Below, in pieces: positions 13,938 through 60,061 of a stretch of 64,000 nucleotides of DNA. A program made the translations under genes and the position numbers. The DNA lies in assembly GCA_028278455.1 (NCBI GenBank), contig JANQEH010000166.1:31371-95370 (forward strand). Direction: 5' to 3'. Numbering within the stretch: position 1 is the stretch's first letter; each line of letters opens with the position of its first letter. The notes below the pieces were generated by a model. It made no database searches. It was not told the DNA's origin and saw nothing but the letters and a program-made list of their open reading frames with translations. Origin of the DNA: a bacterium (GTDB taxonomy: Bacteria; SM23-31).

Positions 13938-14306
13938 TTAATTAAATTGATTCTTATTATTGAGCGATTTTTCGACTATTTTGAGCACTTCAAACATTTT
14001 GAACGGCTTGGATATTTTCAGATATTTATCCTGCTCTGTATCAAGGAGTCTGCTGTAGGCCGACATCAGAATTATATTTATATGAGGCTTTTCTTTATTC
14101 ACGATGTTCGCAAGATCTTTACCACTCATTCCATCCATGTGTACATCAGAGATCAGGACATCAAATGGTTTTTTGTTGATAAGTTCCAGGGCATCTTCAG
14201 CATTTTCAGCAGTTTCAACATTGTATCCATAAGTTTTAAACCAAATCCTGACAATATCCAGGATCACCTTATCATCATCTACTATTAGAATATTTATATT
14301 GTGCAT
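13938..14306 (-). CDS. Single-domain response regulator
   Basis: INILIVDDDKVILD...FDVLISDVHMDGMSG...KISKPF. Confidence 0.9.
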   Translation of the reverse strand: MHNINILIVDDDKVILDIVRIWFKTYGYNVETAENAEDALELINKKPFDVLISDVHMDGMSGKDLANIVNKEKPHINIILMSAYSRLLDTEQDKYLKISKPFKMFEVLKIVEKSLNNKNQFN

Positions 14307-14347: not shown

Positions 14348-14363
14348 TACAATTGCCGTGCCA
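14348..14363 (-). promoter_or_regulatory. Candidate sigma-54 -24/-12 promoter for 14306->
   Basis: Minus strand TGGCACGGCAATTGTA (TGGCAC-N5-TTGTA), about 42 nt upstream of the ATG. Confidence 0.65.
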
Positions 14364-14479: not shown

Positions 14480-14504
14480 CAGGAGTCTAAAATTTAGACT
14501 CCTG
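14480..14504. promoter_or_regulatory. Palindromic candidate enhancer site UAS1
   Basis: CAGGAGTCTAAAATTTAGACTCCTG: 12-bp perfect arms around one central base. Confidence 0.65.
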
Positions 14505-14525: not shown

Positions 14526-14542
14526 AGTCTAAAATTTAGACT
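14526..14542. promoter_or_regulatory. Palindromic candidate enhancer site UAS2
   Basis: AGTCTAAAATTTAGACT; same 17-bp core as UAS1, centre-to-centre 42 bp. Confidence 0.65.
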
Positions 14543-14551
14543 GTGCGGATT

Positions 14552-15901
14552 TCAATTCAGGCGGTATTTTTTTAGCTTATTAAAAAGGGTGGCTCTGGAT
14601 ATCCCAAGCACTGCGGCGGCACGGTTTCTGTTACCTGAGACTTTACCCAGAATCTCGGTGATATATTGTTTTTCAATATCTTCCAGAGTAGGTTCTTTAT
14701 CCGAATTGATTACATCTTTCTTAGTAATTTTGTTTCCGGAAATTTCAAACGGCAGGTCTTCAGGTCCAATTACATTATCTTCGCAGAGTATAGTGCATCT
14801 TTCGATAACATTTTCAAGTTCTCTGACGTTTCCGGGCCAGTCATAGGCTTTAAATAACGATACAGCCCTTCTCGATATAGACAATCCGGGTTTATGAAGT
14901 TTTTCTCGGTAATACTCTATAAAATGGTCAGTTAGAAGTTCTATGTCGGATAAACGCTCTTTTAGTGGAGGTATCCGGATAGGTATAACATTTAATCTGA
15001 AAAACAGATCTTCTCTGAAGTTCTTGTTTCTTGCTTCCTGCTGGAGATCTCTGTTTGTCATAGCAATAATTCTGACATCTACTGTCCGGGACTTGTTTTC
15101 CCCTATACGTTTTATTTCCTTATTCTGAAGAAATCTTAATAATTTCACCTGAGCTGGTAATGACAATTCCCCTATCTCATCAAGTATTACAGTACCTTTT
15201 TCTGCTTCCTCAATAAGGCCTTTCTTGTCAAAGTCCGCTCCGGTAAATGAACCTTTCATATGACCGAACAATTCACTCTCATGAAGATTATCGGGTATGG
15301 CTCCGCAGTTTATGATAGTCAGAGGTTTTTCACTTCGGCTGCTATTATAATGTATAGCCTTTCCAACAAGCTCTTTGCCGGTTCCACTAGCTCCAGAAAC
15401 CAGAACTGTGCTGTCTGTATTGCAAATCTTTGTTATGGTTTTCAGTATTTCCAGCATGTTCTCTGAGCTGGCAATAATATCCTCAAACTTGTATTTGTCA
15501 TTTAGTTCTTTCTCTATATGGACCAGCCTGTCCGCAAGGCGCTTTTTTTCCAATGCCCTTTCAACTATCAACAATATTTCATCGAGTTCAAAAGGCTTTG
15601 TGATATAGTCGTAAGCTCCTTTTTTGATTGCTGTAACAGCTGTTTCAACAGTTCCATAGGCTGTTATTAATATTATCTCCGTAGATGGGGCAATCTCCTT
15701 AGCATTCTCGATAACTTCCAGGCCGCTAATATCATCAAGCTTCATATCGGTTATTACAAGGTCAAATGAACCTTCTTTTAGAACGTTCAGCCCTTCCGCG
15801 CCTTTTCCGCTTTCACAGACCTCAAAATTTTCAAGAGTAAATAGCTGAACGAGTGATTCTCTAACAGAATCATCATCTTCAATTATCAGGATTTTAGACA
15901 T
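14552..15901 (-). CDS. NtrC-family sigma-54-dependent response regulator
   Basis: Receiver domain, AAA+ with GASGTGKE Walker A, GSFTGA loop, C-terminal Fis-type HTH (NRNRAAAVLGISRATLFNKLKKY). Confidence 0.96.
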   Translation of the reverse strand: MSKILIIEDDDSVRESLVQLFTLENFEVCESGKGAEGLNVLKEGSFDLVITDMKLDDISGLEVIENAKEIAPSTEIILITAYGTVETAVTAIKKGAYDYITKPFELDEILLIVERALEKKRLADRLVHIEKELNDKYKFEDIIASSENMLEILKTITKICNTDSTVLVSGASGTGKELVGKAIHYNSSRSEKPLTIINCGAIPDNLHESELFGHMKGSFTGADFDKKGLIEEAEKGTVILDEIGELSLPAQVKLLRFLQNKEIKRIGENKSRTVDVRIIAMTNRDLQQEARNKNFREDLFFRLNVIPIRIPPLKERLSDIELLTDHFIEYYREKLHKPGLSISRRAVSLFKAYDWPGNVRELENVIERCTILCEDNVIGPEDLPFEISGNKITKKDVINSDKEPTLEDIEKQYITEILGKVSGNRNRAAAVLGISRATLFNKLKKYRLN

Positions 15902-18815
15902 CTTTTTCCTTATGCCTGATTGGCAGTTTAATTTTAAAACTGGTTCCTTCTCCGGCTGTTGACGAAACCTGGATAAGGCCGTTGTGGTCTGAGATGATTT
16001 TTTTTACTACAGATAGCCCAATTCCCGAACCGCGGGATTTTGTAGTGAAATAAGGCTCGAATATTTTTTGCAGATCCTTCTTACCGATACCTTTACCGTT
16101 ATCAGAAATGGTTATACTAATATGTTCAACACTTTTCTCATCCTCGAAAATTTCTATTCTGATAGTTCCTTCAAACTCTATCGCCTGAATGGAATTAATC
16201 AATAGATTCCAGAGAACATTCTTTATCAAATCCATGTCGATATATATCTCTGGAAGAATATCACCATTTATTACCTCTATATTGATTTTCTTAGCCAGGT
16301 ACTGATCGTTGTTCTTAAGAAGCAGAATCTGCTCGTTAATACAATTCAGGATATTGTGCTTTCTAAATATGGGCTCTTTCGTACTGCTGAATTTGAGAAA
16401 GTCAATTATTATCCCATCGAGTCTTTTTGTTTCATCGATTATTATAGTCATCAGTTTTTCATTATCACTGTCCAGTTCGATCTTTCTTTTAAGAAGACTT
16501 GCACAGTTCATGATAGATGTAAGGGGATTGCCTATCTCATGAGCAATCTTCCTTGATAATTCTCCAATAGCTGACATGTTTTTTGAGAACGCAAGTTCTG
16601 TCTCCATATTCTTCATCTGAGTAATATCAACTATCACGCATAGAGTCCCCTGGAAACTGTTTTCGGCCGATAGCAGAGGAGTTGCTGAGATCAGGACATT
16701 CATAATAGAGCCGTCATTCTTAAAAACGGTGCTTTCAAAGTACTTGTGTTTTCTTGTATCCTGATCTAAGTTAAAAGCAACTGAATTCTTGTATTCCTCT
16801 ATTGTAATAACCTCCAGGAGATCTTTATTGATGATTCTGTTCAAACTTGATCCGGCCATATCGATAAAAGCGGGATTGGCATAGGTTATCCTTTCCTTGT
16901 CATCAAGAAGGACTATACCCGCAAAAGAAGTTTCTGCAAGAACTCTGTATTTTTTTTCGCTCTCTATAAGAGCAGTCTCCATCTTTTTCCTTTCAGATAT
17001 ATCCTTAATAATGGCCTGCAAACATTTCTCACCTGACCAATCAATAATGCTCAGACTTATTTCTGCATCGAAAACAGTATCATCAAACCTTTTATGCATC
17101 CATTCGAAATGTCTAAGAGAACCTGCGTAAGCTTTCCTGATTTTCTCAATTGCTTCTATATCCGATCTTGAGCCGTCAGGCTGGAATTCCGGCGAAAGGT
17201 CAATAGGAGTTTTACCAATGATCATATCCTCCCTGCATCTGAACAATTCCTGTGCTTTCTTATTGCATAATATTGTTTTATCATCTTTAAATACAAATAT
17301 TGCATCGTTTGCTGTTTCGAATAATGTCCTATATCTTATTTCGGATTTCTTAAGTTCATCTTCGGCTTTTTGTCTACCGGAAATATCTATCCCCAGATTG
17401 ATGAAATAATCGATTTCTCCATCATCCCTGAGGACAACCTTTCTATGCCACTCTACCGGAATGGTTCTCCCACCTGAAGTCTGAATCGCTCCTTCGTTAG
17501 TATTTGATATCTTCGCAGTTGTCAGAATATTTAGAATCCGTGTTACCATCTCTCTATTCTTTTCAGGTATTAATATATCAACAACGTTTTTTCCGACCAG
17601 ATCATCCAGTGAAAAACCGGTCGTGTCAAGCAAAGGATCATTAGCCATCAGAATGTTATGATCCCTGTCAGTTGCCACATAATATGCCGGTGAGGACTGT
17701 ACTAAATTTAAACTCAGGTTCTTTTCTTTTAATAACTCTGCTTCAATCCGTTTTTGTTTCGTAATATCCACAAAGGAAATGATGCTTTTGTTGGTTCCGG
17801 GAATCATCTCAACAGAGATATAAATATTTTTTATTTCACCATGCCTGTCCAAAGCTCTCGATTCATATTTGCTGGGGATTTTCTTCTGATCTGTACGCCT
17901 TTTAAAATGGAACTGGGTCATTCTGTCAAGTTCATCTTTATGAATCAGTTCTGTCCATTTGCGTTTACCTTCAATCTCTTCTTTTGTATAACCAGTTATT
18001 TTCTCGAACTCAGAGTTGACCATGGAAATTGTAGTATCTGCTTCTGAAATCATAAAAGCAGTCCCTGTTTTCTCGAAAATAGTCCTGTATCTTGATTCCG
18101 ATTCCGCTAACTTTTTAAGGGATTTCTGTCTCTCATTCTCTATTCTGAATCCTTCGTTTGTCAAATATATAAGAAGTGTTGAAACCATACCTAATATCCA
18201 TAATAGAGTGAACAACAGCTTGTTGATTATACTTCTTATCTCGCTTTCGACATCTTCAATATATACCCCCGTACCAATGATCCACCCCCAGGGAACATAA
18301 CCCTTGACATATGACAATTTCGGCACCAGCCTGTCCGGATCATCTTTCCATTGCCAGATATATTCTGAATATCCTTCGCCTGCTTCTCTTACGATCCTGG
18401 CAAACTCGACAAACATTTTCTTACCGTTTGGATCGGAATAATCAAGCAGGCTCTGACCGTTGAGCTCCGGTCTATATGGGTGGACAATCATATTCGGGGT
18501 AAGATCACTTATCCAAAAATAGTCCTTGCTTTCAGGGCCATATCTCAGGTTTTTTACTTTGCCGATTACCAGTTCTTTTGCCTCATCAAGTCCGATTGAT
18601 CCTTCAGTATACTGACTGTTATAAAGATCAAGCACGCTCCATACTGAATTCACAAGCTCTTTTATCATTTCCCGTTTTTTATTCAATAGATTATCTTCAA
18701 GTGAGGGGATAAATATGACAAAAAAAGCTATAAGGAACAAGATAATTGTAAGCACAACAGGTATGATAATTCTTATCTTAAAGAAACTGAAATAGTTATG
18801 ATTAAATTTGGTCAT
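15894..18815 (-). CDS. Cache-multiPAS sensor histidine kinase, probable partner of the NtrC-type regulator
   Basis: Cache domain similar to the 6871-9639 kinase, several PAS domains, HEIGNPLTSI H-box, GSGIGLSVVKKI; 8-nt overlap with the regulator gene. Confidence 0.93.
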   Translation of the reverse strand: MTKFNHNYFSFFKIRIIIPVVLTIILFLIAFFVIFIPSLEDNLLNKKREMIKELVNSVWSVLDLYNSQYTEGSIGLDEAKELVIGKVKNLRYGPESKDYFWISDLTPNMIVHPYRPELNGQSLLDYSDPNGKKMFVEFARIVREAGEGYSEYIWQWKDDPDRLVPKLSYVKGYVPWGWIIGTGVYIEDVESEIRSIINKLLFTLLWILGMVSTLLIYLTNEGFRIENERQKSLKKLAESESRYRTIFEKTGTAFMISEADTTISMVNSEFEKITGYTKEEIEGKRKWTELIHKDELDRMTQFHFKRRTDQKKIPSKYESRALDRHGEIKNIYISVEMIPGTNKSIISFVDITKQKRIEAELLKEKNLSLNLVQSSPAYYVATDRDHNILMANDPLLDTTGFSLDDLVGKNVVDILIPEKNREMVTRILNILTTAKISNTNEGAIQTSGGRTIPVEWHRKVVLRDDGEIDYFINLGIDISGRQKAEDELKKSEIRYRTLFETANDAIFVFKDDKTILCNKKAQELFRCREDMIIGKTPIDLSPEFQPDGSRSDIEAIEKIRKAYAGSLRHFEWMHKRFDDTVFDAEISLSIIDWSGEKCLQAIIKDISERKKMETALIESEKKYRVLAETSFAGIVLLDDKERITYANPAFIDMAGSSLNRIINKDLLEVITIEEYKNSVAFNLDQDTRKHKYFESTVFKNDGSIMNVLISATPLLSAENSFQGTLCVIVDITQMKNMETELAFSKNMSAIGELSRKIAHEIGNPLTSIMNCASLLKRKIELDSDNEKLMTIIIDETKRLDGIIIDFLKFSSTKEPIFRKHNILNCINEQILLLKNNDQYLAKKINIEVINGDILPEIYIDMDLIKNVLWNLLINSIQAIEFEGTIRIEIFEDEKSVEHISITISDNGKGIGKKDLQKIFEPYFTTKSRGSGIGLSVVKKIISDHNGLIQVSSTAGEGTSFKIKLPIRHKEKDV

Positions 18816-18847: not shown

Positions 18848-18863
18848 TGCAAATAATAGACCA
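18848..18863 (-). promoter_or_regulatory. Candidate sigma-54 -24/-12 promoter for kinase/NtrC operon
   Basis: Minus strand TGGTCTATTATTTGCA (TGG-N9-TTGCA; GG-N10-GC spacing), 33 nt upstream of the ATG. Confidence 0.55.
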
Positions 18864-18934: not shown

Positions 18935-18951
18935 AGTCTAAATGTTAGACT
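18935..18951. promoter_or_regulatory. Palindromic candidate enhancer site UAS3
   Basis: AGTCTAAATGTTAGACT, same 17-bp geometry as UAS1/2, upstream of the kinase/NtrC promoter. Confidence 0.6.
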
Positions 18952-45645: not shown

Positions 45646-45763
45646 AACTAAGCCTTCATTATAGAGCACCATCCAATTCGACAATTTCATCGAATTTTCG
45701 ACGAAAATGTTAATGTGTAAATTATTTTAAGCTCTGCCAAACAAGATTTCCCCATATTTATGT

Positions 45764-45801: not shown

Positions 45802-45817
45802 TGGCATATCGTTTGCT
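45802..45817 (+). promoter_or_regulatory. Candidate sigma-54 -24/-12 promoter
   Basis: TGGCATATCGTTTGCT (TGGCAT-N5-TTGCT), 76 nt upstream of the 45893 ATG. Confidence 0.65.
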
Positions 45818-45892: not shown

Positions 45893-46609
45893 ATGAAAAA
45901 ACTGATTATCAACTTCGTTTTATTAATCGTATTCTCTTTATTAGTAGCTGTCGATCCAGGCAGTGAAGCTGCAGCACAGGTCGGAACATCAACTGCGGAT
46001 ATCCAGAAGCAGCTGAAAAAGGCTAATGTAGAGATCCCGTTTGTAGACAGGGATGGTGACGGGGTCAATGATCTTCTGCAAAATGGATGGGGATTACGCT
46101 TTCTGAAAAGATATAATAACCGGAACGAAGCCTGGAATCAAATTATCGAACAGGGAGAAGACGGAACTATTCTTGTGGATACCGATGGAGACGGTACTGC
46201 CGATACACCTTTGAGAGAACTCCGACAAAAAAGAATGGGTGAGTTAATCGATACTGATGGAGACGGCGTAGCGGATACTGCCTTCGGGCAGTATATGAGA
46301 GGTCTGATGAACGAATTGGTAGATACTGACGGTGATGGTATTGCTGATACTTCGCTGAGAGATTACATGAAGAAGCAGTTTCAGCTTCTCGATGAGGATG
46401 GTGATGGTATCCCGGATAATATAACCCGAGAGCAGTTACAGGAAGATATGCAGGAAATGAGAGCCTGGAGACAGCAGATCAAAGAAAACCTTGAGAATGG
46501 GCTTCCGGCCTTTACAGATGAGAACGGTGACGGAATTCCTGACGATCTCCCAAGTGGATTCGGTTGGTTAGGCAGGCACAAAAAAAGTAAAGGTATCGGG
46601 GGAGAATAA
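45893..46609 (+). CDS. Secreted EF-hand/thrombospondin-3-like repeat protein
   Basis: Signal peptide and about six D-x-D-G-D-G repeats (DRDGDGVND, DTDGDGTADT, DTDGDGVADT, DTDGDGIADT, DEDGDGIPDN, DENGDGIPDD). Confidence 0.75.
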   Translation: MKKLIINFVLLIVFSLLVAVDPGSEAAAQVGTSTADIQKQLKKANVEIPFVDRDGDGVNDLLQNGWGLRFLKRYNNRNEAWNQIIEQGEDGTILVDTDGDGTADTPLRELRQKRMGELIDTDGDGVADTAFGQYMRGLMNELVDTDGDGIADTSLRDYMKKQFQLLDEDGDGIPDNITREQLQEDMQEMRAWRQQIKENLENGLPAFTDENGDGIPDDLPSGFGWLGRHKKSKGIGGE

Positions 46610-46774: not shown

Positions 46775-49243
46775 ATGCACAGTTTGAAGTTAAGATTATT
46801 AGTGTTCTCTGTTATCATCCCTGCATTCTCTTTTCTAATGGTAAAAGCTGTTACAGCGCAAACAGTTAATAATGAGAGAAGAAGTGTTTCAGGATATGTA
46901 AAAGACCTTGATACAGGCGAAAGTCTGCCGGGTGCAAATGTTGTTCTAAAGGGCACAAGGCTGGGAGCAGCAACAAATATAGATGGATATTTTGTTATAC
47001 TCAATGTACCTGCGGAGGTATGTACTCTCCAAGTCAGTTATATCGGGTATAGGCCCAGAGAAATACCTGTAGATAATACAGTTCCGGAGGTGAAAATATT
47101 AAATATAGAAATCAAGCCAACGGCATTTATATCTGAAGAAGTTGTTGTCACAGCAGAAGCGAGGGTGATCGATGTAGTCAGGGAGAAGGTAAGCCAGGTT
47201 AAAATATCTCCAAACCAGCTTAAGACTCTGCCTAATTTCGGAGAAGTGGATGTATTCAGGTCACTTCAGCTGCTCCCTGGAATAAGTGCAGCGGATGACG
47301 GTTCCTCCGGTCTTTATGTAAGGGGGGGCACACCGGACCAGAACCTGATCTTATTTGACGGGATGAAGATCTACCATGTGGATCATTTCTTCGGATTTTT
47401 CAGTGCATTCAATGCGGATGCAGTGAAGGATATTAAAATGTTCAAAGGTGGATTTCCTGCTGAGTATGGAGGAAGAATATCGAGTGTTGTTGATATTACA
47501 GGGAAAACAGGAAATGTTAACAATAAGAGTCTTGCAGTTGGAGCAAATCTTTTGAGTGCAAATGCGGTGTTTGAAATGCCTGTTACAGATAAAATGAATT
47601 TTCTTATCTCAACCAGAAGGTCATATACGGATTTTATAAAAAGTTCACTTTATAATAATATTTACGGATTTATGACTGGTGATGAAGATACAAATACAAA
47701 TACCGGTAATTTTCAAATGAGACAGGGAAGAGGAGGAGCTAATTTTATGCAGGGGACCGAAAATCCGGATTTTTATTTTTTTGATATGAACAGTAAGTTG
47801 ACCTGGACACCGACTGAGAAAGATATAATGGCAGTAAGTTTTTATATGGGAAAAGATAATCTCGATCAGTCACAGGACTTCGGCGGTATAAGATTCAGAT
47901 TCTCCGATGAGGAAAGCGAGGGGAGTATGACCATGAATAATATAACTGAATGGGGGAATCTTGGAATAAGCGGGAAGTGGTCACGCCAGTGGAATGAAAG
48001 GATTTATTCAAATTTTCTTGCAGCCACCTCAAAATATTTCAGCAATTATGACAGGAACCGTCAGACAAATAGCGATCTTGCGCCAAATGACAGCACGCGT
48101 GTAGCACGCGGACTTGTTGGCGCCACAGAGGAAGATAACGAAGTCGGTGATTTGACTATCCGTTTCGACAATGAGATACAGGTTACAAACTCACATAAAA
48201 TCAAGATCGGAGGAGAATTCGGAAAATTCAATACGGAATATACATCTACATATAATGATACACTTGAGATGTTTTCAAGAAAGACCGATGCTATCCAGAG
48301 AGCAATATACATCCAGGATAAATGGGATATTTTCCACAGAATGGAATTGACTGTCGGGATCAGGTCTAATAATTACAATAAAACGGATAAAGACTATTTC
48401 GAACCGCGAGCATCATTTGTCTTAAAATTAACTGATCAAATCAATGTTAAAGGAGCTTGGGGAGAGTATAATCAGTTCGTCAGCAGGATAGCCAATGAGA
48501 ATGTACTGGAGGGCAGCAGAGATTTCTGGCTGCTTGCAGATGATGAACTGCTGCCGATGTATGCCGAACATCAGGTGCTCGGATTGAGCTATGAGAATAG
48601 AGATTATCTGCTTGATGTGGAGGCTTATAACAAGGATATTGAGAATATTGTGGAGTACACGAGACGAATAAGGAGGCAGGGTACTGAGGCGAATAATCCC
48701 TTGTTCCTTGGAACCGGTTCCTCAAAAGGAATAGAATTTTTTCTCCAGAAAAAGCGAGGGAAATTGACAGGTTGGGCTGGATATACACTTGGTGAAGTAG
48801 AATATATTTTCCCGGAACTCAATAACGGAGATCCCTTTCCAGCAGATCATGACAGGAGGCATGAATTCAAAATGGTAGGAAGTTACTCATGGAACCGGTG
48901 GAAATTTGCAGGTACATGGGTTTATGCCAGCGGGAGAGCATATACATCTCCTGAAAGCCAGTATTATCTCACTATGCTCGATGACAATTCGATCAGTTAT
49001 ATTCACGTCAGCGATAAAAATTCCAACAGGCTTACACCATATCACAGGCTCGACATCAGCGCATCGAGAAGATTCGAAACCGATAAGATTGCTTTTGATA
49101 TTGGCCTTTCCGTTTTCAATGCTTACAATCACAAAAATGTTTATTACAAGAAGTATGAGCTTGATACCACACCTATTGTAATTACAGATGTACTGATGCT
49201 CGGATTTACCCCTACGATGTCTGTAAAACTCTATATAAAATGA
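46775..49243 (+). CDS. TonB-dependent receptor with CarboxypepD_reg-like N-terminal domain
   Basis: VSGYVKDLDTGESLPGANVVLKGTRLGAATNIDGYF, plug GLYVRGGTPDQNLILFDGMKIY, barrel C-terminus. Confidence 0.93.
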   Translation: MHSLKLRLLVFSVIIPAFSFLMVKAVTAQTVNNERRSVSGYVKDLDTGESLPGANVVLKGTRLGAATNIDGYFVILNVPAEVCTLQVSYIGYRPREIPVDNTVPEVKILNIEIKPTAFISEEVVVTAEARVIDVVREKVSQVKISPNQLKTLPNFGEVDVFRSLQLLPGISAADDGSSGLYVRGGTPDQNLILFDGMKIYHVDHFFGFFSAFNADAVKDIKMFKGGFPAEYGGRISSVVDITGKTGNVNNKSLAVGANLLSANAVFEMPVTDKMNFLISTRRSYTDFIKSSLYNNIYGFMTGDEDTNTNTGNFQMRQGRGGANFMQGTENPDFYFFDMNSKLTWTPTEKDIMAVSFYMGKDNLDQSQDFGGIRFRFSDEESEGSMTMNNITEWGNLGISGKWSRQWNERIYSNFLAATSKYFSNYDRNRQTNSDLAPNDSTRVARGLVGATEEDNEVGDLTIRFDNEIQVTNSHKIKIGGEFGKFNTEYTSTYNDTLEMFSRKTDAIQRAIYIQDKWDIFHRMELTVGIRSNNYNKTDKDYFEPRASFVLKLTDQINVKGAWGEYNQFVSRIANENVLEGSRDFWLLADDELLPMYAEHQVLGLSYENRDYLLDVEAYNKDIENIVEYTRRIRRQGTEANNPLFLGTGSSKGIEFFLQKKRGKLTGWAGYTLGEVEYIFPELNNGDPFPADHDRRHEFKMVGSYSWNRWKFAGTWVYASGRAYTSPESQYYLTMLDDNSISYIHVSDKNSNRLTPYHRLDISASRRFETDKIAFDIGLSVFNAYNHKNVYYKKYELDTTPIVITDVLMLGFTPTMSVKLYIK

Positions 49244-49251
49244 GGTATTAA

Positions 49252-50073
49252 ATGACTAAGATATTATTTTCATTATTCCTGACAGCGACTTATTTATTTT
49301 TTAATTGTACTTCAGAATCTTCTGTAGAACCAAATACAGATGAAATCGTAATTCAGGCATATATATATGCGGGTGAATCTGTAACGGATGTACGGATTAC
49401 ATCTACGCTGCCACTAGGGACAGATGAGCTGTCCGCTCCTCCTATAAATGATGCAGAAGTTACGTTGATAAAGGATGGGATCCGGTATACACTTCAATCA
49501 AGTCCCGGAGACAGCGGGTATTATCATTATGAAGGAAGTGACCTTTCTCTAAATGAGGGGGATGCGGTCAGAATAGAAGTAAATTATAGCGATAAATTAG
49601 CATACGGAGAGACTGTCATCCCCCCACCTCCTGAAGGTATTCATGCATCAAGCGATGAAATCATATATCCAACCGAGCTTACCTGGGAATGGAGATATTC
49701 TGAGGAGTTCGAGAAAAGTCAAATGATGCTTTATTGGGATGGAGATGGCGAATCCCTGTATTTTGCGGTGATCGAGACAGTCGATCCCAATCCCCAACCT
49801 GTTGATACGACGATATTTCCCTTCAGGGGAATTTTCAGGATAAGAACGAGGCCATCAACTGCTGACAGCCTCAGGCTAAATTTCATGCAGTTTGAATATC
49901 TTGGCAGGCACCGGGCAAAAATATATATGGTTAACCAGGAATATGCGGATCTTTACCAAACGCAGTCTCAGGATTCGAGAGACCTGAATGAACCGTTAAC
50001 AAATATTGTTAACGGGCTTGGTGTTTTCAGCGCTTTTAACAGTGATAGTGTGTTTTTCGAGGTAAAATATTAA
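49252..50073 (+). CDS. DUF4249-like lipoprotein
   Basis: Lipobox-like YLFFNCTSE, INDAEVTLIKDG...GDSGYYHY...YGETVIPPPPEGI; directly follows TonB receptor. Confidence 0.7.
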   Translation: MTKILFSLFLTATYLFFNCTSESSVEPNTDEIVIQAYIYAGESVTDVRITSTLPLGTDELSAPPINDAEVTLIKDGIRYTLQSSPGDSGYYHYEGSDLSLNEGDAVRIEVNYSDKLAYGETVIPPPPEGIHASSDEIIYPTELTWEWRYSEEFEKSQMMLYWDGDGESLYFAVIETVDPNPQPVDTTIFPFRGIFRIRTRPSTADSLRLNFMQFEYLGRHRAKIYMVNQEYADLYQTQSQDSRDLNEPLTNIVNGLGVFSAFNSDSVFFEVKY

Positions 50074-50077
50074 ATAA

Positions 50078-50953
50078 TTGCATAAGCATGAAAAAATTGA
50101 ACGGAGTAATAAAATGGTAAGAAAAATTACATTATTTATGATCGTTTCCGTATTCATCCTGTTGCCGGGATGTGGAAATAAAACTATTGACAGCCAGTGG
50201 ACAGATCAGAAGATATCTGTAGACGGCATTGCAGCGGACTGGCAGAATTTTAAACTGCAGAATTACGACAAGCAGGACATGTTCCTCGGTATAACAAATG
50301 ATAAAGACAACCTTTATTTGCTGATCAGTTTCAAAGGGCTGGCATTATCGAGAAGATTTTCAATGTCCGGGCTTACCGTCTGGCTTGATGACGAAAACAA
50401 GAAGAAAAAAGTATTAGGTGTCAGGCTTGTTCCGGAAATGGATCCGAGGCAGAGGTTGGGTGAGAATATACCTGCCCAAATGCCCGAGGAAATGAGACTT
50501 GAGCTTGAAGAACGCCAGAAAAACCTTATTAGAGGACTTACTGTAACTACGAATGGAGGAGTGTTTTATAAGCTTGATGATGCAGAGAATATTCCCCGGG
50601 GATCATATTCCAATGAGAATGACGCCATAACCACCGAGCTTGCAATCCCATTAGAGGAAAGTAGTATTACACCATTTGCTATAGGATCAAATCCTGGATC
50701 GAAGATGAAAATCGGTTTTGAAATCGGCGGTTCTCAGGCACTGATGAAGAATAGATCCAGCATGACAGGCAGCATGGGAGCCCGTGGAGGCATGTCTGGT
50801 GGAATGGGTGGACGTGGCGGCAGAGGCGGCAGAGGTGGAATGAGTGGTGGCAGAGGAGGTATGACCGGTGGAATGAGAAATACTTCACAGTCTGCGCAGT
50901 TTCAGGATATCTGGCTCAGCGCAAACCTGGCAGTTGATAGTGAAAAGAAATAG
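50078..50953 (+). CDS. Lipoprotein with DOMON/CBM9-like domain and C-terminal RGG/Met-Gly-rich segment (start may be 50114)
   Basis: Lipobox LLPGCGN, ISVDGIAADWQNF...LYLLISFKGLALS...GLTVWLDDE, then GARGGMSGGMGGRGGRGGRGGMSGGRGGMTGGM. Confidence 0.55.
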   Translation: MHKHEKIERSNKMVRKITLFMIVSVFILLPGCGNKTIDSQWTDQKISVDGIAADWQNFKLQNYDKQDMFLGITNDKDNLYLLISFKGLALSRRFSMSGLTVWLDDENKKKKVLGVRLVPEMDPRQRLGENIPAQMPEEMRLELEERQKNLIRGLTVTTNGGVFYKLDDAENIPRGSYSNENDAITTELAIPLEESSITPFAIGSNPGSKMKIGFEIGGSQALMKNRSSMTGSMGARGGMSGGMGGRGGRGGRGGMSGGRGGMTGGMRNTSQSAQFQDIWLSANLAVDSEKK

Positions 50954-51005: not shown

Positions 51006-52133
51006 ATGCGTGAACTTCAACTTACAGGATTAATACTGGCAGCTGCAGGTACGGCTATGCTCTATTCGGGAAAACAGAGTTTCAAGACTAATGCTTATTT
51101 GAAAATACTCCTGCCATTAATAACTGTTCACTTATTGGTGATCGTTTATTGCGGCCTGCTGGATCTTTCCAGTATACTGGTTTGCAGGATATCTTCAATA
51201 TTTATTCTCCTTTACGGACCTTTGATTTTATTTTACGAGAGAAGTCTCATTGATAGCAATTTCAGTTTACAAAAAGTGCAGTATCTGCATTTTATCCCCT
51301 TTGTATTTGTCCTTACAGTATATACCGTATTCTGGTTAAGACAAGTAAATACGCCTTTTGATAATTCAATTATACAAACGGATTATGTGTTTATTCTTTC
51401 TATGCAGTTATTGATACCTTCGTTATTTGCGTTAGCGTATTTATTGTATATTTTCATCCGTTACAATCATCACAGCCTATTGGGAATTACCGGAAATGAA
51501 TGCATTGATCTATCAGAATTTTTTCTGCTCAGGAATATGTTAAAGATCTTTACGCCGGCATACATTATAACTTTTATCATCGGCGGTATAGAATTGCATT
51601 ATGAGAAGAATTCTGTTTATTCAGATCTGCCGGTATTATCGTCTTTTATACTTTTTTTCTCATTGTTCATTTATTCCGGACGGAGATCTTTCAAAGACAT
51701 CAGTAAGATTCCGGTTGAACCGGCTTCTTCAGCAGTGAATAACAATGAACCTGAATACAAAAAATCCGGATTGAACGAGCAGGAATCGGGCAGTGTTCTG
51801 GAAGAGCTCGTCAGTTATATGGAAACCGAGAAACCCTATCTTGATGAAGATTTTACTATTCACGATCTATCAAAAGAGCTTGGTATCCCTAGACACTATA
51901 TCACACAGGTTATAAACAAGAAACTTAAGAAGAATTTCTATACATTCGTGAATGAATACAGGGTAAAGGAATTCAAAATCAAACTTACTGAACCGGGTAA
52001 TAATCATTTCAAACTGATGACAATTGCTTACGAGTCAGGCTTCAAGTCTAAATCAGGATTCTATTCTGCATTCAAAAAGATTGAGAACATGACACCATCT
52101 GAGTTCAAAGAAGCTGTATTAAATGGAAATTAA
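51006..52133 (+). CDS. AraC-type regulator with N-terminal multi-TM sensor region
   Basis: Seven or so TM helices then C-terminal HTH (FTIHDLSKELGIPRHYITQVINKKLKKNFYTFVNEYRVKEFK...YESGFKSKSGFYSAFKKIENMTPSEFK). Confidence 0.88.
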   Translation: MRELQLTGLILAAAGTAMLYSGKQSFKTNAYLKILLPLITVHLLVIVYCGLLDLSSILVCRISSIFILLYGPLILFYERSLIDSNFSLQKVQYLHFIPFVFVLTVYTVFWLRQVNTPFDNSIIQTDYVFILSMQLLIPSLFALAYLLYIFIRYNHHSLLGITGNECIDLSEFFLLRNMLKIFTPAYIITFIIGGIELHYEKNSVYSDLPVLSSFILFFSLFIYSGRRSFKDISKIPVEPASSAVNNNEPEYKKSGLNEQESGSVLEELVSYMETEKPYLDEDFTIHDLSKELGIPRHYITQVINKKLKKNFYTFVNEYRVKEFKIKLTEPGNNHFKLMTIAYESGFKSKSGFYSAFKKIENMTPSEFKEAVLNGN

Positions 52134-56629: not shown

Positions 56630-57475
56630 TTATTGGATTATTATGGTGTATGTCTTGACCGTTACTGCTCCAAAATACCCAAGGGCATTATTCGTTAGAT
56701 TTGATAATGGATTAGCTGGCTGTCCCCAAAGGGCCTCACCCCCACCATCGTCATCATCGTCTTCCCCTTCATCGTAGGTAACTATATTCCAAAGGGTGGA
56801 AAAATATTCATATACAGATCTATCAAATGTCAGGAGGTCGACTTTGATTTCGTTTCCGGAATAAAAAGTCTCTTCAAAAAACTCATAATCAATATACATC
56901 CCATCGGTGAGCCTGTCATCATACAGGTAATACTCCTGGGATAATACACCCTCTTTGAATACTTTAAGACGGATATAATCCTCAATATCTACACGGTCCT
57001 GAAAAAAACATACCACGGAATACTCATCGGGATAATCTTCATCAGCAAAGAATGTGAGTGAATCAAGTTCAAGCGCTTCCGGCATGGTAGAGAATGCCGT
57101 ATAGTTCTCTCCTTCTGATTCTACAGAAAGTGTATATGTTTTACCCGATACCCCCTGGATGTCTGTCGTAATATATATACCTGTATCCGTTTCCTGGAGT
57201 AATTCAGAATTTCCAGTGTTGTCGGAAATTCTGACTACAGCGCCTGAAACAGGTGGAAAATCACCGGGTTTGAAATAATCTGTTGTTTTGTGGATGGTAA
57301 CTCTATACGGGCCTGGTTGATCGGTAATAACACCCTCAATAACAATCCTCGGCTCAGCGGTGTTAAGATCGACCGTAATTACATCAGTACAGGATATACA
57401 GATTGCTGCTGTTAACAGGATACAAAATACGAAAGTGTGCATTTTTTTCATGGATTTTATACTTTTATATAGCAT
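56630..57475 (-). CDS. DUF4249-like lipoprotein
   Basis: Lipobox-like TAAICISCTDV, RIVIEGVITDQPGPYRVTIHKTTDYF..FPPVSGAVVRISDN; downstream of TonB receptor. Confidence 0.8.
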   Translation of the reverse strand: MLYKSIKSMKKMHTFVFCILLTAAICISCTDVITVDLNTAEPRIVIEGVITDQPGPYRVTIHKTTDYFKPGDFPPVSGAVVRISDNTGNSELLQETDTGIYITTDIQGVSGKTYTLSVESEGENYTAFSTMPEALELDSLTFFADEDYPDEYSVVCFFQDRVDIEDYIRLKVFKEGVLSQEYYLYDDRLTDGMYIDYEFFEETFYSGNEIKVDLLTFDRSVYEYFSTLWNIVTYDEGEDDDDDGGGEALWGQPANPLSNLTNNALGYFGAVTVKTYTIIIQ

Positions 57476-57482
57476 ATCTGCC

Positions 57483-59804
57483 TCAAAATTTAAAATTAAA
57501 GGTGAATGTCGGAAAGAATTTGAAAAGAGATACTCTTACTGCTTCCATAGAACCTGGAGAGGTTTTACTTTCACGAAAATATACGGCAAAAGCGTTTTTT
57601 CTCCCATATGCATTGTACAAAGAAAAATTCCAGTTCGATTCAAACCATTTCCTTTTCTTATTCTCGTGAGTTATCCCGAGATCCAGACGATGGTATGAAG
57701 GAAGCCTGTATCCGTTTCTTTCAGTATAATAGTTTGCGATCCTGCCATCTACTATGTACTTACCGCTCGGAAAACTGACGGCATCTCCAGTGTGATAAGT
57801 CCAGGTTGCTGAGAAGGACCATTTGGGATTTGCTTTATACATGGAAACGATAGAAAAATCATGTGTTCTGTCGTTTTTTGCAGGAAAGTACTTTCCATCA
57901 TTGATCTTCTCGAATTTTCTTTCGGTTTTGGAAAGAGTATAGCTTATCCAGCCGGTAAGTCTGCCATTCTTTTTCTTGACAAATAATTCCGCCCCATAAG
58001 ACCTCCCGGTTCCGTAGACCAGTTCACCTTCGACATACTGGTTCAGGACTATATTGGCATTATTTCTGTATTCTATCTGGTTTTTTAGGTCTTTATAATA
58101 TACCTCAAGAGAAGATTCGATATTATTTCCCAGCAGATTTCTGAAATAGCCCAAGGCAACCTGGTCGGCAATTTCGGGCTTTACATTTGTAGTGCTCGGT
58201 TGCCAGACATCAAGAGGAGTGCTGGCGAATGAATTAGAAAGTAAGTGTATATACTGCCTGTTTCGGGCGTAAGAAGCCTTGAATGAACTATTTTCATCGA
58301 GTATGAAATTCGTTGTAAGACGCGGTTCGAAACCAAAGTAACTTTTTTCGATCTTATTCTTTTTATACGATTTTGTTCCTGTCAGCCTTCCGTTCTCATC
58401 GAAACTGTATGTTTCACCTGGTCCGATAATACTGAAAGATGACTGGCGGAATCCATAGTCAAAATTCAGTTTTTCATTCGCTGAATATTTGTGGGAGAAA
58501 TATACGGCGCTTTCTATGGCATATTTATTTGAGATCTTCTGCCTGTATGTTTCCTGCCGGTCAGCCAGAGTAATCTCACCGGGAAGGAATTTGTGATGAA
58601 TCAGGTTCAATCCAAAGGAAAATGTATTATCAGGATCCTTAAAATACTGAAAATCCTCTTTAAGATTGATGTCTTTGATAGAAGAGGTGATCTTGATATT
58701 GCTGCTGTTTGATTTAGATGTAATAATATAATCGAAATCGCTGTGAATAAGTGAAGAATTCAAAAACAGTTTTTCACTGAATATATGATTCCATCTTATG
58801 GTAGCTGTCGAGTTTCCCCAATTGAAATCGAATTCATCTTTATAACCGATCACATCCCTGCCGAAGTAGCCGGATATGAAAAGTCTGTCGTTATCCCCAA
58901 CCTGATAGTTAGCCTTCATATTCAGATCATAAAAATGAAGCTTTGAATTCTTTGTGTCCTCATTTTTGGAGAATCTAAAAAACTGATCTGCCCATGTTCT
59001 GCGGCCTGAAATAAGAAACGATCCCTTTTCTTTGACGATAGGTCCCTGGAGTGTATAACGGGAAAAGATCAATCCAATACCGCCTTCAGATGAGAACTCC
59101 CTGTTATTACCCTCATTCATTGTCATGTCAAGCACTGATGAAAGTCTTCCTCCATATGAAGCAGGAAATGATCCCTTTATTAGTTTGACATCCTTTATCG
59201 CATCGGGATTAAAAACCGAAAATATTCCCAGCATATGATAAGCATTGTAAACCGGAGCTTCATCAAGAAGAATCAGGTTCTGATCTGCTTTGCCACCTCT
59301 GACAGAAAAACCGCTGTTCACTTCCGAGGACGCCTTAACACCCGGTAGAAATTGTATAGTCTTAAGAATATCCTGCTCCCCGAAGAGAATTGGAACGGTT
59401 TTTACCATAGATGGTTTGAATTTAGTTATACCCATTTCAACCGATTTGATATTCTCATCTGCTTTTTCTGCAGTAATTATTAATTCATCAGCAAGGTTGA
59501 CAGCCGGCTTGAGCTCTAAATTGAATTTCCGGTTCATATTAAGATTAATTGTTTCATTTTTTGTGTCGTAACCGATATAGCTGAACTCAGTTTCGTATCT
59601 GCCGGCTGGAAGAGTAAGTGAATAAAAACCGTATACGTTGGTTGATGTACCCGTTTTTAGAGTTCGGATATAAATATTTGCTCCGATGAGGACTTCTCCG
59701 GTTGTCGCATCTTTCAATGTACCGCTTATCGTGAATTTTTCCTGTGCAGGTGAAATCCCGCTGACAAACAGCAGAAATAATAATAAAATTATAGGTAGTT
59801 TCAT
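57483..59804 (-). CDS. TonB-dependent receptor with CarboxypepD_reg-like N-terminal domain
   Basis: ISGTLKDATTGEVLIGANIYIRTLKTGTSTNVYGFYSLTLPAG, plug GFSVRGGKADQNLILLDEAPVYN; ATG at 59804. Confidence 0.93.
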   Translation of the reverse strand: MKLPIILLLFLLFVSGISPAQEKFTISGTLKDATTGEVLIGANIYIRTLKTGTSTNVYGFYSLTLPAGRYETEFSYIGYDTKNETINLNMNRKFNLELKPAVNLADELIITAEKADENIKSVEMGITKFKPSMVKTVPILFGEQDILKTIQFLPGVKASSEVNSGFSVRGGKADQNLILLDEAPVYNAYHMLGIFSVFNPDAIKDVKLIKGSFPASYGGRLSSVLDMTMNEGNNREFSSEGGIGLIFSRYTLQGPIVKEKGSFLISGRRTWADQFFRFSKNEDTKNSKLHFYDLNMKANYQVGDNDRLFISGYFGRDVIGYKDEFDFNWGNSTATIRWNHIFSEKLFLNSSLIHSDFDYIITSKSNSSNIKITSSIKDINLKEDFQYFKDPDNTFSFGLNLIHHKFLPGEITLADRQETYRQKISNKYAIESAVYFSHKYSANEKLNFDYGFRQSSFSIIGPGETYSFDENGRLTGTKSYKKNKIEKSYFGFEPRLTTNFILDENSSFKASYARNRQYIHLLSNSFASTPLDVWQPSTTNVKPEIADQVALGYFRNLLGNNIESSLEVYYKDLKNQIEYRNNANIVLNQYVEGELVYGTGRSYGAELFVKKKNGRLTGWISYTLSKTERKFEKINDGKYFPAKNDRTHDFSIVSMYKANPKWSFSATWTYHTGDAVSFPSGKYIVDGRIANYYTERNGYRLPSYHRLDLGITHENKKRKWFESNWNFSLYNAYGRKNAFAVYFRESKTSPGSMEAVRVSLFKFFPTFTFNFKF

Positions 59805-59845
59805 TGAATTCCTCAAAGCGTTTATTAGTTTTGAATCAACCTTTC

Positions 59846-59861
59846 AGCAAACTATATGCCA
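59846..59861 (-). promoter_or_regulatory. Candidate sigma-54 -24/-12 promoter for the second TonB receptor
   Basis: Minus strand TGGCATATAGTTTGCT, 42 nt upstream of the ATG; one base different from the 45802-45817 site. Confidence 0.65.
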
Positions 59862-60045: not shown

Positions 60046-60061
60046 TGGCACAGAATTTGAA
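60046..60061 (+). promoter_or_regulatory. Weaker sigma-54-like site
   Basis: TGGCACAGAATTTGAA: good -24, -12 GC replaced by GA; next clear gene is about 490 nt downstream. Confidence 0.25.

Follow-up and report, generated by a model that had tools for sequence, protein, structure and literature searches.

Two receptor units and their promoters

The 64,000-nucleotide stretch analysed here (the window) belongs to the draft genome of an uncultured bacterium (318 contigs, 76% complete) and carries two units in which the gene for a TonB-dependent receptor is followed by a gene for a DUF4249 protein (Table 1). These are the only two DUF4249 genes detected in the genome, and each lies in a unit headed by a sigma-54-type -24/-12 site that matches the strict form of the motif. 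As the sequence-only reading had claimed, the two 16-mers are nearly identical: an exact sequence search of the window finds them on opposite strands with 14 kb between them, differing by a single base. Both contain the GG of the -24 element and the GC of the -12 element at the fixed spacing.

The receptor gene behind the 59846 site has a GAGGAA ribosome-binding-like stretch before its ATG, and transcription is predicted from the usual spacing to start near 59835. A sequence at 60046 on the plus strand, TGGCACAGAATTTGAA, was rejected as a promoter and is not counted, being without the -12 GC and having no gene within 450 bp. Elsewhere in the genome (G000 C252:30523-32979; L153, L120), the 59804 receptor gene has a degenerate copy with several internal stops, 57% identical to it in the best stretch; the first open piece of this copy, the only part searched, matches STN weakly and does not reach the Pfam cut-off.

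The unit behind the 45802 site is longer. It opens with a gene for a putative calcium-binding exported protein, a paralog of which is encoded at C182:5477-6205 (58% identical, with DxDGDG repeats as well); neither protein has convincing relatives among the 59 other genomes searched. The 165-bp gap that follows leaves room for another, internal promoter before the receptor gene. A lipoprotein-like protein, for which no Pfam or NCBIfam match was found, is encoded in the likely receptor operon, and the gene for an AraC-type regulator is possibly the last of the unit.

Table 1. Genes and sequence elements of the window referred to in the text
Feature	Position	Strand	Remarks
Sigma-54-type site TGGCACGGCAATTGTA	14348-14363	-	1 mismatch (-12 GC to GT); 41 bp before receiver gene 13938-14306
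Palindrome AGTCTAAATTTTAGACT	14484-14500	-	candidate activator site
Palindrome AGTCTAAATTTTAGACT, second copy	14526-14542	-	
EBP gene	14552-15901	-	receiver, sigma-54 activator AAA+ and Fis-type HTH domains
Histidine kinase gene	15894-18815	-	Cache/PAS
Sigma-54-type site TGGTCTATTATTTGCA	18848-18863	-	weak, 2 mismatches; before kinase gene
Palindrome, third copy AGTCTAAATGTTAGACT	18935-18951	+	
Dyad TCGATGAAATTGTCGA, TCGAC-type	45678-45693	-	candidate activator site; 124 bp upstream of 45802 sigma-54 site
Dyad, second, partial copy TCGACGAAAATGTTAA	45698-45713	+	
Sigma-54-type site TGGCATATCGTTTGCT	45802-45817	+	strict match; 75 bp before gene 45893
Exported protein gene	45893-46609	+	238 aa; repeated DxDGDG (calcium-binding-like) motifs
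TonB-dependent receptor gene	46775-49243	+	no STN domain; 165 bp after gene 45893-46609
DUF4249 protein gene	49252-50073	+	
Lipoprotein-like protein gene	50078-50953	+	Met/Gly/Arg-rich tail
AraC-type regulator gene	51006-52133	+	hydrophobic, membrane-like N-terminal half
DUF4249 protein gene	56630-57475	-	7 bp after receptor gene
TonB-dependent receptor gene	57483-59804	-	CarboxypepD_reg-like domain; no STN domain
Sigma-54-type site TGGCATATAGTTTGCT	59846-59861	-	strict match; 41 bp before receptor ATG at 59804

Sigma-54 sites in the genome and at receptors

Within the window, the loose pattern TGGCACNNNNNTTGCW (up to two mismatches) has 21 matches vs 20.8 expected, and because this is the chance level, it is the genome-wide counts of the strict pattern TGGCAYNNNNNTTGCW that carry the verdict. 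In the whole genome (5.28 Mb), the strict pattern is matched 40 times and its reversed control twice, an approximately 20-fold excess. Moreover, 33 of the 40 strict matches are in an upstream position, that is, within ~350 bp 5′ of a gene on the same strand and not inside another gene, compared with 7% of random positions. The scan of position and upstream elements covered 66 contigs (1.73 Mb) picked for enhancer-binding proteins (EBPs), receptors or motif matches, where a simple longest-ORF rule, rather than a trained gene finder, was used for gene calling. It might be supposed that the match is fortuitous for one of the 16-mers or for both and that the genes use other promoters, given the chance-level loose matches in the window and the finding that homologous receptors in other genomes have no strict site upstream. 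However, the excess of the strict pattern, its concentration before genes and the usual distances of both sites from good start codons render this very improbable. By these measures, the 45802 and 59846 sites are both very likely genuine sigma-54 promoters and members of a real genomic promoter set.

The genome encodes RpoN (E 5e-59) and 19 EBPs with full EBP domains. Genes that follow strict sites code for flagellin, FlgB, type IV pilin, Hsp20, FtsX-type permeases, a peptidoglycan amidase, receiver-domain proteins and outer-membrane proteins. Of these, Pfam confirms the amidase, one outer-membrane barrel and the receptors, and N-terminal sequences served to name the rest. Five relatives of the same class have an excess of the motif too (11-30 matches vs 1-3 in the control per genome), and the genes behind the sites sampled in them are those of flagellin, FlgB, pilin, Hsp20 and the like, typical targets of sigma-54, as named by sight. 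The sigma-54 regulon thus appears to be broad in this genome, and its target types fit those of published surveys (PMC3162934, PMC12316311), which, in the passages searched, relate sigma-54 targets to the cell exterior (flagella, lipoproteins, peptidoglycan, FtsX-type permeases) and do not name receptor/DUF4249 units. TonB is not mentioned in the text of the 2011 survey (PMC3162934), and the 2025 survey (PMC12316311) reports TonB itself as enriched in Flavobacteriia, which is unconfirmed. Among the papers available, none brought together rpoN, a TonB-dependent receptor and an enhancer binding protein.

At nine of the 19 EBP loci (G000 contigs C283, C182, C194, C310, C174, C109, C235, C315 and C256; counted from the table of loci), a sigma-54-type site with at most one mismatch lies behind the EBP gene, directly ahead of the gene that comes next. 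A DnaK-like gene has two sigma-54-like sites upstream, C160:1957 and C160:2063, with one mismatch each. In the relative G002, the 16-mer TGGCATGATATTTGCA occurs seven times (sites on C97, C130, C143, C213, C215, C259 and C281) and may represent a repeated promoter or element.

In Bacteroidota-like bacteria, TonB receptors are generally treated as controlled by ECF or housekeeping sigma factors. Among the 25 receptors considered here (24 with a Plug domain and one found by homology), a strict site stands directly upstream of three, vs 20 of 1064 other genes (Fisher p = 0.014). The motif scan proposed by the sequence-only reading thus gives a frequency above background, in a minority of receptors: those at 59846, C242:36986 and C256:3840 (287 bp away). 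The number rises to 4/25 (p = 0.0017) if the 45802 unit is taken as one operon, and the excess is weak (p = 0.053) when one mismatch is allowed. The choice of contigs for EBPs, receptors or motif matches inflates the background, so the enrichment test is conservative. The strict site is absent from at least 21 of the 25 receptors; in the relatives, about two-thirds of whose sites were sampled, 54 sites have an ORF downstream and for none of them is it a receptor. On this evidence, some receptors of this genome do seem to be under sigma-54 control, a minority mode that is perhaps lineage-specific.

Upstream elements and candidate activators

Ten of the 780 pairs that can be formed among the 40 strict sites are one base apart, and for this reason the near-identity of the two 16-mers says nothing on co-regulation. 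Beyond the core, the regions upstream of 45802 and 59846 have nothing in common (pair score rank 817 of 3540). A recent duplication of the receptor units, both of which encode a receptor and a DUF4249 protein, would also account for the likeness of the promoters, but the receptors reach only ~38% identity in their best-matching stretch, and the sequences flanking the two sites show no relationship. Flank comparison largely refutes such an origin, and it deserves next to no credence.

The TCGAC-type dyad upstream of 45802 is absent at 59846. Its counterpart, TCGACGAAAATGTCGA, is found at C182:5302, exactly 124 bp before the sigma-54-type site of the paralog C182:5477-6205, and in 1.73 Mb the dyad TCGAYGAAAWTGTCGA has two perfect matches, both 124 bp before the sigma-54-type sites of the paralogous genes. 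Because the dyad was derived from the very pair it links, the two perfect matches are partly circular and the link is a strong lead, not proof. Blind scoring places the 45802/C182 upstream pair 17th of 3540; the two promoters are otherwise unalignable, with the dyad and its spacing kept. The C182 paralog lies behind genes for a histidine kinase and an EBP, the first of which is itself preceded by a sigma-54-like site and, upstream of that site, three TCGAC half-sites. Two or more half-sites occur in only 3 of 61 promoters (45802, the C182 paralog and the C182 kinase), the figure for general upstream windows being 12 of 536. The C182 sigma-54 sites each deviate from the strict motif by one base, and C182 is unlikely to be a foreign contig because its composition is typical of the genome. 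A symmetrised form of the dyad, TCGAYRNNNNYRTCGA, was discarded as a definer of a regulon, since it is too loose (20 places in the whole genome vs 6 in the control).

The dyads, with their position and distribution, point to the C182 kinase/EBP pair as the likely activator of the 45802 promoter. It could be argued that the sigma-54 promoters are real and that the C182 pair does not control 45802, the dyad being an inherited remnant or a site of another regulator: gene 45893 and the C182 gene are paralogs whose promoter pieces may stem from one duplication, the blind rank is only 17th, and the genome holds 18 other EBPs. On the other hand, the dyad and its spacing remain while the rest of both promoters has diverged beyond alignment, and the half-sites recur before the C182 kinase/EBP operon itself, so we consider this alternative unlikely.

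For 59846, a palindrome scan, shared k-mers and CCCGGG counts gave no convincing activator dyad; the CCGGG repeats upstream of it (59904, 59929 and 60006) are candidate sites without further support. The sequence-only reading had placed the receptor/DUF4249 pairs in one sigma-54 regulon. Its claim of two sigma-54 promoters has held up, both being very likely genuine. That both DUF4249 units of the genome are headed by a strict site and that receptors are enriched for such sites favours control by a common activator. Nevertheless, the common regulon itself was not supported: the two units have no upstream element in common, only 45802 has the TCGAC dyad, most receptors are without a strict site and the sampled sites of the relatives precede none, which leaves a single regulon decidedly unlikely. 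The identity of the core reflects a common sigma factor and no common activator. It seems rather probable, on the sequence evidence, that the two 16-mers are RpoN promoters of receptor and DUF4249 genes served by different activators, with 45802 most likely under the C182 kinase/EBP pair. Near-identical core promoters should not be taken as a common regulon; upstream activator sites decide.

The mechanism proposed for this reading is drawn from the known biology of EBPs, whose action on RpoN polymerase is described in PMC4641369. The C182 kinase would phosphorylate the C182 EBP, which would then bind TCGAC-type dyads ~105-125 bp upstream of the -24/-12 site, contact the RpoN polymerase by DNA looping and open it with ATP. 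Predicted targets are its own operon, the adjacent calcium-binding-like gene, and the paralogous gene of the window together with the receptor, DUF4249 and downstream genes, as far as the putative operon extends. The 59846 receptor would use the same sigma factor and another activator.

The promoters at 14.3 and 18.8 kb had been counted with these two as four strong candidates in 64 kb. While 45802 and 59846 are strict, the other two are not strong by motif, having one and two mismatches; they gain support from their common upstream dyad. The three AGTCTAAATTTTAGACT-type palindromes (14484, 14526 and 18935) are the only matches with up to two mismatches in 1.73 Mb and flank the local kinase/EBP pair on either side. 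This arrangement suggests an autoregulated circuit with the receiver gene as a further target, apparently separate from both receptor promoters. The window would thus harbour at least two separate sigma-54 circuits, probably three.

Comparison with known systems

The predicted regulation is of a known kind, and its targets appear new. As in NtrC/AtoC/ZraR-type circuits, an EBP with receiver, AAA+ and Fis domains adjoins a histidine kinase, the promoters are of the -24/-12 type, dyads lie ~100-180 bp upstream and autoregulation is apparent; what sets the present case apart is the predicted control of an outer-membrane receptor unit. The best NCBIfam match of the C182 EBP is AtoC, below the cut-off, and assignment as an AtoC, NtrC or ZraR ortholog was dropped, as the curated cut-offs are not reached. 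If true, a sigma-54 circuit for which one activator and one binding site can be named as candidates would make it possible to test which signal, and perhaps which substrate, belongs to the receptor/DUF4249 pair.

Control by FecI/FecR (ECF sigma) has the same kind of target, TonB receptors, but the receptors of the window are without an STN domain and the window gave no FecR_C match. In L128, a DUF4249 gene comes after the gene for a receptor that is 52% identical to that at 46775 and has an STN domain, and a FecR gene lies nearby. In L129, the receptor (51% identical) has no STN domain, and no FecR match was found among the genes scanned in the available stretch. A change of receptor/DUF4249 control between lineages is suggested, from one example only. 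It is possible, if somewhat doubtful, that a receptor/DUF4249 unit that elsewhere has STN-FecR signalling was rewired here to a dedicated kinase/EBP sigma-54 circuit co-controlling two paralogous calcium-binding-like exported proteins at separate loci. Three other receptors of this genome (C274, C164 and C2) adjoin FecR-type genes.
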